From assembly GCF_000817785.2 (NCBI RefSeq), contig NZ_JTCM02000055.1, positions 1 to 43,549 of the forward strand: DNA of 43,549 bases. The letters are read 5' to 3'. Within the stretch, counting starts at the first letter, position 1; the number at the start of each line of letters is the position of its first letter. Below the pieces are notes generated by a model. That model was not told where the DNA came from. It worked only from the letters and a program-made list of their open reading frames with translations, and ran no database searches. The translations under genes were made by a program, and so were the position numbers. Positions 13,430 to 23,624 of the stretch are shown here, piece after piece. This stretch comes from Hassallia byssoidea VB512170. Its GTDB lineage: Bacteria; Cyanobacteriota; Cyanobacteriia; Cyanobacteriales; Nostocaceae.

Positions 13430-13801
13430 CTAACTCCAACCCAGGATTTTTGCCACTTGATCTGCCAGCTTCAAAGGGTCAAAGGGCTTGGCAATGACTC
13501 CTGCTACACCTAAGTTAGCAAACTGATTCGGTTCGGCAAACTGTATTTTCGCACTCAGCAAAATGACTGGAATCGATTGGGTATCAGGTTTTTCTTGTAG
13601 ATGATGAAATAAAGTAATACCATCCATTTCCGGCAGCATCACATCTAGCAAAATGGCATTTGGCTGTTCAATTTCCGCTATGAGTAACCCTTCATTAGCG
13701 GTAGTAGCGATGAGTACTTCCCAACCTCCTAAGGTTTCTAAGCAAGTCTGAACTACTTCGCTCAAACGTTCTTCGTCATCAATCAGCAGAATTCGTCGCA
13801 T
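13430..13801 (-). CDS. Single-domain response regulator (CheY-like)
   Basis: A 123-residue lone receiver: RRILLIDDEERLSE (acidic pair), phospho-Asp in AILLDVMLPEMDG, Ser in VILLSAK, and the conserved Lys in IAKPFDP. All residues needed for phosphorylation are present and there is no output domain. It sits between two histidine kinases on the same strand (gaps of about 300 and 140 bp) and probably relays phosphate from the downstream-coordinate PAS kinase. Sequence 13802-13941 carries a partial copy of the GAAGTCGGGTTTCT palindrome family. Confidence 0.92.
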   Translation of the reverse strand: MRRILLIDDEERLSEVVQTCLETLGGWEVLIATTANEGLLIAEIEQPNAILLDVMLPEMDGITLFHHLQEKPDTQSIPVILLSAKIQFAEPNQFANLGVAGVIAKPFDPLKLADQVAKILGWS

Positions 13802-13941: not shown

Positions 13942-15699
13942 CTACAGCGGTAAGGTGAAATAGAAGGTACTGCCTTCACCGACAACGCTTTCTGCCCAAA
14001 TTTTTCCGTTATGCTGCTGCACAATAGTGCGACATATAGCTAATCCTAGTCCAGTACCGCAGGAATTGCGAGAGTCTGAAGCATCAACTTGCTCAAACCT
14101 ACCAAAAATACTTTCTAGTTTATCAGCAGGAATACCCCGCCCTTGGTCTTTGACTTTGAATAGGAGATGGGGAGTGGGGAGTGGGGAGTGGGGAGTGGGG
14201 GGAGTGGGAGTGGGGGGGGACAAGGGAGAGGGGGGGGACAAGGGAGACAAGGGGGAGGGGGGGGACAAGGGAGAGGGGGGAGACAAGGGAGACAAGGGAG
14301 ATGAGGGAGACAAACTCCCCCTGCCCCCTGCCCCCTGCCCCCTGCCCCCTGCCCCCTTGTCCCCCTTATCCCCCTTGTCCTTTTGAACTTCTGCACTCAG
14401 AATAACAGTACTCCCCGAAGGCGAAAATTTAACGGCGTTTGCTAGCAGGTTGACAAGAGTTTGAATGATGCGATCGCGATCGGCACATATCTCAACAGAT
14501 AGGGGAAAAACTGTTAGGTTGATGTTGGCTTCTTCGGCAAAGCATTGCACAGCGTCTATTGCTTGCTGCATTAAAGTAGCAGCATTACATGGATGTTTTG
14601 CCAAGACAATTTTGCCTGATTCGAGTCGCTCTAAATCAAGAACTTGATTGACCAAACGTACTAAGCGTTCGGTGTCAAGCGCGGCAATTTCTAACATGCG
14701 TCGCGCTTTTTGCGGTTGGTTGTCGAGTCGTCCGGAAGCAAGCAATCCTAAAGAACCGCGAATCGAAGCTAATGGTGTTCGCAATTCGTGGCTGACAATC
14801 GAAATAAACTCGCTTTTCATCTTTTCTATAGCTCGCATTTCGGTGATGTCTTCAACGGTTCCGACATGACCGATTAATTCTTTTTGGTCAGAAAAAATAG
14901 GAGCTGTTTTCAGCCGACAAAAACGTATAGTTCCGTCTCGATGAACAGAACGCACTTCTCCAATAAATTCTTGAGTTGCTGTTACTGCTTGTAACCAACG
15001 AGAAAAATAAAGCTGACGATCTTCTGGGTGAACGAACTTGACCCAGCCATGTCCTAAAGCTTCTTCAAAAGTGTAGCCGCAAATTGCTTGAGCGCGAGGA
15101 TTGGTGTAGATACATCCTCCTTGGGGATTTACTCGAAAGATGCCGACTGGGGAAGCTTCGCTTAAAGCGCGAAATTCGTCTTCGCAGCAGCGTAAGGCTG
15201 ATAATGCAAGTTTGCGATCGCGAAGTGCGGCAACGCGTTCACGAAGTGTGCCGCAGGTATCGCTAATATCCCGTCCTTCAGAAATTAGTAATACTATTTT
15301 GCCGGTTTCATCTAAAACTGGTTTGAGGGAAAAGTCAATTGTTTGCACTATTTCTCCCGCACCGATTATATCTACTTCGTAGCGAACAAATTCACCTTTT
15401 GCGGCTTGAGCGATCGCGCTAAATAATTGCGTTTGTGTTTCTTGAGACATCCACCATCGCGCTTGCCAAAATGGATGTCCAACTACATCTGTTGATTGCA
15501 ATCCGCCAAAATTCAGTGCTGTTTGATTAGCTTCTAAAAGTGTACCATCCAGTTTTAAAAGCCACATAAATTGAAATGTCTGGTCAAAGATTGCGCGAAA
15601 TCGTCTTTCACTTTCTTGCAATGCGGCTTGTGTTTGTTTGCGTTGCGTAGCTTGCCGATAGGCATCGGTGATATCCTGAATTTGTTCTCTAGTATGCAT
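13942..15699 (-). CDS. PAS-PAS histidine kinase with STRR-encoded insert in the ATPase domain
   Basis: 585 residues: PAS 1 (about 27-150, RRFRAIFDQTFQFMWLLKLD), PAS 2 with PAC (about 170-290, EDEFRALSEASPVGIFRVNP; HVGTVEDITEM), the H-box EFISIVSHELRTPLASIRGS, N-box NLLANAVKFSPSG, G1 FKVKDQGRGIP and G2 CGTGLGLAI. Between the strand ending LSAEVQ and the strand LLFKVKD, residues 440-511 are pure low complexity (KGDKGAGGRG, then LSPPSPLSPP repeats), encoded by an STRR tract like those in intergenic regions. Without it the domain would have normal size, and the frame is kept. The insert falls in a loop that varies in this fold, so activity may survive. Confidence 0.92.
   Translation of the reverse strand: MHTREQIQDITDAYRQATQRKQTQAALQESERRFRAIFDQTFQFMWLLKLDGTLLEANQTALNFGGLQSTDVVGHPFWQARWWMSQETQTQLFSAIAQAAKGEFVRYEVDIIGAGEIVQTIDFSLKPVLDETGKIVLLISEGRDISDTCGTLRERVAALRDRKLALSALRCCEDEFRALSEASPVGIFRVNPQGGCIYTNPRAQAICGYTFEEALGHGWVKFVHPEDRQLYFSRWLQAVTATQEFIGEVRSVHRDGTIRFCRLKTAPIFSDQKELIGHVGTVEDITEMRAIEKMKSEFISIVSHELRTPLASIRGSLGLLASGRLDNQPQKARRMLEIAALDTERLVRLVNQVLDLERLESGKIVLAKHPCNAATLMQQAIDAVQCFAEEANINLTVFPLSVEICADRDRIIQTLVNLLANAVKFSPSGSTVILSAEVQKDKGDKGDKGAGGRGQGAGGRGSLSPSSPLSPLSPPSPLSPPSPLSPLSPPSPLSPPTPTPPTPHSPLPTPHLLFKVKDQGRGIPADKLESIFGRFEQVDASDSRNSCGTGLGLAICRTIVQQHNGKIWAESVVGEGSTFYFTLPL
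14167..14382. repeat. STRR tract inserted in a histidine kinase gene
   Basis: About 216 bp of GGGGAGTG heptamer/octamer units, GGGGGGACAAGGGAGA units and CCCCCTGC heptamers, ending in TTGTCCCCC-type 9-mers. The same units fill intergenic gaps at 7700, 29380 and 30950. Here they are translated in-frame as 72 residues. Confidence 0.92.
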
Positions 15700-22334: not shown

Positions 22335-23624
22335 ATGAGTACAAATCTTTTATTCAAAGCTGCAAATCGTCACTGGTTGATTGGTATAATAGTTGCTGCA
22401 AGTGCGATCGCAGGCGGAATAGCTCTTTATGGTGTTTCTCAATTTGGGGTTGCTGACAATTCTACATCTAGTAAAGTAGAAACTATACCTCGCGCTCAAA
22501 AAGTAACAGCGTTAGCACGACTTGAACCAGAAGCAGAGGTAATTAAGTTGTCTGCACCTCTAGCTTTAGATGGCGATCGCATTGCCAAAATATTGGTTAG
22601 AGTTGGTGATACTGTGAAAGCAGGACAAGTTGTGGCAATTCTCGATTCACGCGATCGCTTGCAAGATGCTTTGCAACAAACTCAACAACAAATAAATGTA
22701 GCTTCATCGAAACTCGCACAAGTGAAAGCTGGCGCAAAAACCGGAGAAATTCAAGCACAACAGGCAAATGTTGAGCGGTTGCAGGCGCAATTGCAAGGTG
22801 ATAAAATCGCTCAAGTTGAAACTATAGCTCGATTAAAAGCGCAATTACAAGGAGACAACATCGCCCAACAAGCAACAATTAGAAAACTTGAAGCAGAACT
22901 TAATAACGCCGAAGCTGAATATCAGCGCTATCAACAATTATATAAAGAAGGTGCAATTTCTAACTCTTTGTTTGATAGCAAGCGCTTGAGTGTAGAAACT
23001 AGCAAACAGCAACTAAACGAAGCGAAAGCCGTTTTCAACCGAATCAACGCAACTGGTAACAAGCAAATCAGCGAAGCCAAAGCCACACTCAACCGAATTA
23101 ACGCTACTGGTGACAAACAAATTAGCGAAGCCAAAGCCACATTTAATAGTATTGCCGAAGTTCGTGCGGTAGATGTGCAAGCAGCGCAAACAGAAGTTGA
23201 TAATGCGATCGCTTCAGCCAAACGTGCCAAAACCGACTTAGAAGCAGCTTATATCAAAGCACCAATAACAGGAAAGATTCTCAAAATTAACACGCGAATC
23301 GGAGAAAAGATTAATGATGCTGGCATTGCAGACTTAGCGCAAACTGACAAGATGGTTGCAGTTACAGAAGTTTATCAAACCGATATTAGTAAAGTTAAAC
23401 TCGGACAGCAAGCTATAATTACCAGTCAGGCGTTTTCTGGTAAACTGCGCGGCACCGTTTCTCAAATTGGCTTGCAGGTAAATCGGCAAAACGTGTTCAG
23501 TAATCAGCCAGGAGAAAATTTAGATCGCCGCGTAATTGAAGTAAAAATTCGCCTTCAAAGAGAAGATAGTCAGCGAGTTGCAGGTTTTACTAACTTGCAA
23601 GTGCAGACAGCAATTGAGTTGTAA
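22335..23624 (+). CDS. HlyD/DevB-like membrane fusion protein
   Basis: 429 residues: a short cytoplasmic start, one membrane helix (about 15-37), the ALARLEPEAEVIKLSAP lead typical of DevB, a biotinyl-lipoyl half (VRVGDTVKAGQVVAILD), a long coiled coil (about 115-295), the returning lipoyl half (YIKAPITGKILKINTRIGEK) and beta-barrel end. The coiled coil contains an 18-residue (54-bp) repeat, EAKAxxNRINATGxKQIS, present twice fully and once in part (about 23019-23160), and a shorter repeat around AQLQGDKIAQ. It bridges the inner-membrane ABC permease to an outer-membrane channel (TolC/HgdD type), which is not encoded here. Confidence 0.92.
   Translation: MSTNLLFKAANRHWLIGIIVAASAIAGGIALYGVSQFGVADNSTSSKVETIPRAQKVTALARLEPEAEVIKLSAPLALDGDRIAKILVRVGDTVKAGQVVAILDSRDRLQDALQQTQQQINVASSKLAQVKAGAKTGEIQAQQANVERLQAQLQGDKIAQVETIARLKAQLQGDNIAQQATIRKLEAELNNAEAEYQRYQQLYKEGAISNSLFDSKRLSVETSKQQLNEAKAVFNRINATGNKQISEAKATLNRINATGDKQISEAKATFNSIAEVRAVDVQAAQTEVDNAIASAKRAKTDLEAAYIKAPITGKILKINTRIGEKINDAGIADLAQTDKMVAVTEVYQTDISKVKLGQQAIITSQAFSGKLRGTVSQIGLQVNRQNVFSNQPGENLDRRVIEVKIRLQREDSQRVAGFTNLQVQTAIEL
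23019..23160 (+). repeat. 54-bp in-frame tandem repeat in the DevB-like coiled coil
   Basis: Units beginning GAAGCGAAAGCC / GAAGCCAAAGCC recur at 54-bp spacing and encode EAKAVFNRINATGNKQIS, EAKATLNRINATGDKQIS and a truncated EAKATFNSIAE. Expansion or loss of units would change the length of the periplasmic hairpin. Confidence 0.8.

Follow-up and report, generated by a model that had tools for sequence, protein, structure and literature searches.

Coding palindromes, Nostoc heptamers and a tract in a histidine kinase

The palindromic repeats known as RPEs and REPs possess family consensus sequences. In-frame coding palindromes have been reported for Rickettsia, Wolbachia and others (PMC2996958, PMC3733652, PMC6649704; this and the other literature statements refer to the passages available of each paper), and those of Rickettsia (RPE), Wolbachia and O. 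terrae (REPs) are described as palindromic repeats that have entered numerous unrelated genes without disturbing the frame, as a rule in segments lacking structure (PMC2996958, PMC3733652). A comparable tract is described here in a stretch of 43,549 nucleotides from Hassallia byssoidea VB512170 (contig NZ_JTCM02000055.1; hereafter, the window), where palindromic tandem arrays interrupt, in frame, the HATPase_c domain of a sensor histidine kinase; the phenomenon extends beyond this single kinase, similar tracts recurring at the same beta-hairpin turn of other kinases. Like the Rickettsia elements, these tracts are palindromic and are found in frame in many unrelated genes, and an unstructured placement is predicted, for the window kinase only. 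The kinase tract resembles the Rickettsia coding palindromes without being a member of the RPE family: its units vary and share no family consensus. What distinguishes the present tracts from RPEs and REPs are the tandem arrays of variable 7-9 bp units, the G-rich arm coming first, and the preference for a single structural site, namely the hairpin of the HATPase domain.

In heterocystous cyanobacteria, the STRR heptamers are likewise tandem 7-bp units, hairpin-forming and present in many genomic copies, and they are described between genes (PMC2670836). The tract analyzed here shares with them the tandem 7-bp units (mixed with 8- and 9-bp ones) and the many copies, whereas it lies in frame within a conserved domain, with frame-safe units being commoner; it is, therefore, a coding variant. 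The G-quadruplex (G4)-forming heptamers GGGNATC and GGGGA(C/T)T have been reported in Xanthomonas and Nostoc PCC 7120 (68% intergenic in the latter, with a notable intragenic share), with paired convergent (inverted) copies in Xanthomonas and just a few inverted pairs in Nostoc (PMC4692102). G-rich heptamers occur in both cases, whereas in the H. byssoidea genome the inverted, G-to-C arrangement is the commonest class; the available text of PMC4692102 holds no protein-loop or frame analysis, and the terms "in-frame" and "histidine kinase" are absent from it. In the P6b element of the Nostoc tRNA-Leu intron, base-pairing heptanucleotide arrays extend a hairpin that a functioning gene tolerates (PMC3488679), an RNA stem in that case and a protein beta-hairpin in the kinase. 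The palindromes of nematomorph mitochondria are also long inverted repeats within protein-coding genes; those are perfect and said to be actively maintained (PMC6649704), whereas the arrays described here are imperfect and differ across species. As far as these sources go, in-frame coding palindromes and Nostoc heptamers were already known, and the HATPase hairpin as a recurrent tract site appears to be new: among the open-access matches listed, judged from titles, abstract openings and passages, no report of repeats at this landing site was found, which is weak evidence of absence.

The kinase is encoded by the minus-strand open reading frame (ORF) 13942-15699, a single open frame of 585 amino acids (aa) with the Pfam architecture PAS-PAS-HisKA-HATPase_c; judging from its sequence, which comprises both domains as well as the H, N, G1 and G2 boxes, it qualifies as a HisKA/HATPase_c sensor kinase. 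The relevant features are the following:

13942..15699, minus strand: ORF of the sensor histidine kinase, 585 aa, with PAS, PAS, HisKA and HATPase_c domains (ORF translation and Pfam)
14770..14793, minus strand: SHELRTPL, which we take to be the H-box, with phospho-accepting His 304 (invariant columns S24-L31 of kinase alignment A1)
14425..14451, minus strand: N-box NLLANAVKF (motif, kinase alignment)
14383..14409, minus strand: predicted beta strand preceding the insert, residues 431-439 (AlphaFold2 model residues 152-160)
14167..14382, minus strand: 72-codon insert, a palindromic tandem-repeat tract, in frame, stop-free and predicted to be disordered (translation, repeat arrays, AlphaFold2)
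14314..14382, minus strand: G-rich first arm (coding strand), 9-mers of the GGGGGACAA type and 7-mers CAGGGGG
14167..14313, minus strand: C-rich second arm (coding strand), 9/18-mers of the CCCTTGTC type, then ACTCCCC heptamers
14149..14169, minus strand: predicted beta strand following the insert, residues 511-517 (AlphaFold2 model residues 232-238)
14131..14148, minus strand: G1 box DQGRGI (motif, kinase alignment)
14041..14058, minus strand: GTGLGL, presumably the G2 box (kinase alignment)
13430..13801, minus strand: single receiver-domain ORF, 123 aa, directly downstream of the kinase and its probable partner

An earlier, sequence-only reading of the window had reported a repeat tract of 72 stop-free codons between the N-box and the G1 box of an otherwise normal HATPase; its coordinates, strand, frame and composition proved correct, and the flanks are indeed normal, since the downstream one (residues 511-585) matches positions 37-109 of the Pfam HATPase_c profile with an E-value of 1.2e-25 and the alignment columns of the H, N, G1 and G2 boxes show conservation across 27 kinases. 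In translation, the insert (residues 440-511) consists of K/D/G repeats followed by S/P/L repeats. Tandem Repeats Finder resolved three arrays, i.e., 14163-14215 (unit GGAGTGG), 14206-14313 (units of 9, 18, 27 and 45 bp, the longest array of the tract) and 14317-14357 (unit CCCCCTG, with 100% matches). Its two arms form an inverted repeat, though not a perfect one, with the G-rich arm preceding the C-rich one on the coding strand. The RNA fold predicted for the tract (-115.3 kcal/mol, z -4.17) was equalled by none of 200 dinucleotide shuffles, and the DNA fold (z -2.35) by 2 of 200. The attribution of its units to an intergenic type of repeat was also borne out: the intergenic gaps of the window are filled by similar units, and three consecutive GGGGAGT heptamers occur at 264 exact, partly overlapping sites in the H. 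byssoidea genome, versus 0 for the mirrored control. Elsewhere in the window (23035-23141), a 54-bp unit is tandemly duplicated within the ORF 22335-23624.

The AlphaFold2 model positions the tract exactly at the beta-hairpin turn, the remainder having a normal kinase fold; the insert (model residues 161-231) is without secondary structure, with predicted local distance difference test (pLDDT) blocks of 45-65. The insert is thus predicted to be a disordered loop protruding from an intact kinase core fold.

Recurrence of in-frame inserts at the HATPase hairpin

The genome of H. byssoidea contains 136 PF02518 matches, and ten of these domains are split at the identical profile position. A motif search of the fetched H. 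byssoidea DNA retrieved 73 N-box-to-G1 loops, 28 of which are 24 aa long and 12 at least 45 aa. In three genomes, 32 matches to the C-terminal half of HATPase were found; four of them lack an upstream N-box and do not enter the frame count, and among the other 28, which have an upstream N-box and a loop no shorter than 43 aa, the frame is maintained in 27. If the locus L010 is included, 28 of the 29 long inserts are in frame, in agreement with the earlier proposal that intergenic-type repeats can invade coding sequence while keeping its frame, and no stop codon is present in the printed loops of these HATPases. A similar loop (42-68 aa, every sequence different) exists in nine named Nostoc and Calothrix genomes, in kinases sharing the flank FTQTGG. 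Outside cyanobacteria, 43 of 56 loops are exactly 24 aa long and 5 reach at least 40 aa. A different repeat, encoding peptides like DRFSASPRL, also occupies HATPase hairpin loops in G008 (L217, L218, L221 and L226), and in H. byssoidea a 21-bp tandem array (L084, 7462-7640), translated as ISANSET/ISANSNT repeats, lies in an open frame of 2035 codons with HATPase domains.

Repeats misjoined within genes by assembly might, in principle, produce such loops. Contigs do end at these tracts in two cases: in the close relative G003, the contig terminates within the tract, and in G004 (Plectonema radiosum NIES-515), the kinase is divided between two contigs, of which one runs out in repeats and the other opens with the final residue of the tract. 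However, in G008, which consists mainly of one 6.7-Mb contig, all 12 long loops with an N-box are in frame (one N-box, missed by the motif search, was read from the printed frame, and the stop listed for another loop is the terminal one), and similar loops occur in the named Nostoc and Calothrix genomes, so that an artefact deserves practically no credit.

Elements bypassed by the ribosome need be neither in frame nor stop-free, and out-of-frame or stop-bearing elements are the mark of bypassing. The very stable hairpin predicted for the window tract (-115 kcal/mol) would suit a ribosome that bypasses it on the mRNA, so that the tract would never become protein, and a precedent is described, in the part of the source available, for Magnusiomyces mitochondria (PMC6649704). 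The out-of-frame or stop-bearing elements expected in this case were not encountered, however, as the loops are in frame in all cases but one (G001:C83) and the printed ones are stop-free; bypassing would be extremely surprising.

The exception belongs to a hybrid kinase of the congener G001 (L211, G001:C83 19473-19887), the frame of which is broken exactly at the loop tract, both halves being conserved; in the downstream half, 73 of 75 residues are identical to the H. byssoidea counterpart. This break may reflect a mistake in the assembly or an allele that has been switched off. A frame-breaking tract length, named in the sequence-only reading as evidence against its proposal, therefore does occur, in this other kinase, while the window kinase itself is in frame. 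A contingency locus, in which the gain or loss of heptamers toggles the kinase by frameshift within a population, might be suggested by this allele and by the fact that every heptamer gained or lost shifts the frame. Yet the frame is kept in 28 of the 29 loops, the coding tracts are enriched in frame-safe units, the sole exception comes from a draft assembly of 140 contigs and the variation is known at the species level; such a switch is, hence, very unlikely.

The length of the loop differs between species. Homologues of the kinase were searched in 59 genomes (H. byssoidea included) and matches were found in 28 of them at an E-value of 1e-60. The orthologue in G001 has an in-frame loop of 53 aa (from the N-box end to G1), versus 92 aa in the window kinase, built of different repeats. 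An equally long sequence is not shared by all orthologues: in a tree constructed without the loop columns, the sister clade comprises six kinases, each with an 8-residue turn only, and at least five changes between short and long loops are needed on the 27-row tree. In H. byssoidea and G001, five orthologous loop pairs with flanks 77-97% identical measure 87/48, 73/67, 46/61, 77/64 and 109/62 aa, respectively (the pair G000:C34/G001:C35 (49539) was excluded from the length comparison, its flanks being just 55-67% identical). All five in-frame pairs are unequal in length between the two congeners, i.e., at the species level, which, together with the predicted disorder, agrees with the loop of varying length that had been envisaged. 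As for the neighbouring gene, 27 related loci containing the kinase C-half were considered (L011 and L012 excluded), and a same-strand receiver was found within 1.5 kb downstream in 25 of them, apparently separate in 21 and fused in 4, and in 2 there is none.

Placement and polarity of the tracts in the genome

Tandem tracts were surveyed in 1.17 Mb of H. byssoidea DNA (61 partly overlapping stretches, i.e., the window and L069-L128), where 310 were found, 188 of which are at least 60 bp long. Among the latter, 100 run from a G-rich to a C-rich arm and 2 in the opposite direction, 53 have one polarity and the rest are unclear. In the stretches from G001, G008 and the named Nostocales, G-to-C tracts number 2, 5 and 6, respectively, and one-polarity tracts, equally frequent or more so, 5, 13 and 5; no C-to-G tract was found. 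Since the polarity is G-first on either strand, the encoded loop is Gly-rich in its first part and Ser/Pro-rich in the second, which accounts for the succession of residues described in the sequence-only reading. In 20 in-frame polar tracts, the pairing of the two arms beats that obtained after each arm is shuffled by itself (z between 0.0 and -9.7, with a median of -3.6). The repeat units differ among loops and species.

An open frame extending at least 60 codons ahead of the tract and at least 50 beyond it spans 63 of the 310 tracts, and ten of these 63 lie in HATPase hairpins. For the ORF tracts of at least 60 bp, the hairpins account for 7 out of 30, with 0.32 expected (P 5e-8), on the assumption of 136 x 24 codons, by which hairpins represent about 1.07% of ORF DNA. 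Per kb, the hairpin holds 0.71 tracts, compared with 0.62 outside ORFs and 0.025 elsewhere in ORFs; the hairpin is, thus, similar to non-ORF DNA and 28 times denser than the other ORF DNA.

Pfam was run on 18 tract-bearing ORFs, and the gene names given here are a reading of the domains; one of the 18 has no family above the cut-off. Tracts lie in or between the domains of an aminotransferase, a GFO/IDH/MocA oxidoreductase, an AAA-vWA chelatase-like subunit, a GH65-HAD fusion, Omp85, two PMT-like glycosyltransferases, MutL, RsmB-like and RlmN-like methyltransferases, SMC, a pyruvate:ferredoxin oxidoreductase and a heavy-metal P-type ATPase, as well as in the linkers of four further histidine kinases. 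Those in MutL, RlmN, SMC and RsmB are short (12-23 residues). In MutL (L074:10933-12642), the heptamer tract occupies residues 382-393, in the linker preceding MutL_C, and the slippage of a unit could result in a reversible mismatch-repair defect. The pyruvate:ferredoxin oxidoreductase ORF (L124:3143-7024) contains four separate in-frame repeat tracts.

Tolerance, function and the meaning of the loops

The explanation that is preferred here, with a probability of roughly 0.72, is that palindromic arrays arise or insert widely and that selection retains the in-frame ones at permissive turns, that is, by tolerance. The genome of H. byssoidea would generate elements in which a tandem array of G-rich units, 7-9 bp each, gives way to a complementary C-rich array; such elements would appear wherever the DNA tolerates them, either by slippage growth or by insertion. 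The HATPase beta-hairpin turn between the N-box and the G1 box might accept nearly any in-frame and stop-free insert and accumulate these elements much like an intergenic gap. With the G-rich arm first on either strand, the loop would become rich in Gly/Gln/Asp/Lys and then in Ser/Pro/Leu; it would be translated, disordered and protruding from an intact kinase, and probably nearly neutral. Gain and loss of units would alter its length, and selection would purge the frame-breaking changes.

Several points weigh against this explanation. One is the G001 allele, whose 139-nt loop between conserved halves is out of frame. At least 4 of the 29 long loops (G000:C94 and G008 3607737, 2801621 and 5560694) are, by eye, not built of these arrays, and the one-polarity (GG/CC) tracts are not rare, numbering 53 in H. 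byssoidea and exceeding the bipartite ones in G008 (13 vs. 5) and G001 (5 vs. 2). The tolerance of the hairpin turn is general, as 5 of the 56 non-cyanobacterial loops reach 40 aa, and there the turn is seldom filled. The 1.17-Mb sample was selected around HATPases. In the non-ORF G-to-C tracts, 87 of 480 frames are open (~18%); in the polar tracts that lie in frame, stops are absent from 43 of 60 antisense frames and from 27 of 40 of the remaining sense frames (two per tract), from which it follows that gene-resident tracts are built of units that are stop-poor in most frames, and unit lengths divisible by three are commoner in genes (11/27 vs. 13/128, P 3.5e-4), but the in-frame tracts were picked for openness, so that both statistics arise partly by construction. 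Lastly, because about 18% of the non-ORF tract frames are open and one third of the lengths keep the frame, a simple neutral arrival predicts about 0.04 tracts per kb in the loop (our own arithmetic), versus the 0.71 found; this gap needs either a gradual in-frame growth or some benefit.

The latter might be provided by a functional, selected loop, whose Gly/Asp/Lys and Ser/Pro segments would tune ATP binding, dimer contacts or the choice of partner, the variation in length being adaptive. The insert lies immediately before the G1 box, its density is about 19 times that expected from simple neutral arrival, by the same arithmetic, and a tract has been retained in five orthologous loops between congeners. 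Nevertheless, neither its sequence nor its length is conserved across species, the turn of the sister clade is bare, similar tracts occur in unrelated enzymes and linkers and the composition is explained by the DNA palindrome, making a selected function unlikely. A bolder proposal, which is at least as doubtful, is that the HATPase turn is an evolved expansion site, where the arrays would serve as dials that evolve fast and, when a single unit slips, as frame switches that can be reversed; about ten kinases per strain would then differ in loop length or on/off state between filaments.

These findings show a Nostoc-like cyanobacterium in which a family of intergenic-type repeats supplies material for predicted protein sequence, at one structural site common to many paralogues. 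As a caution, short-read contigs can break in such kinases and domain profiles can split there. The same loci offer a set of naturally occurring kinases whose main difference is the loop, making it possible to test directly whether selfish repeats kept in frame bring a benefit or are neutral.
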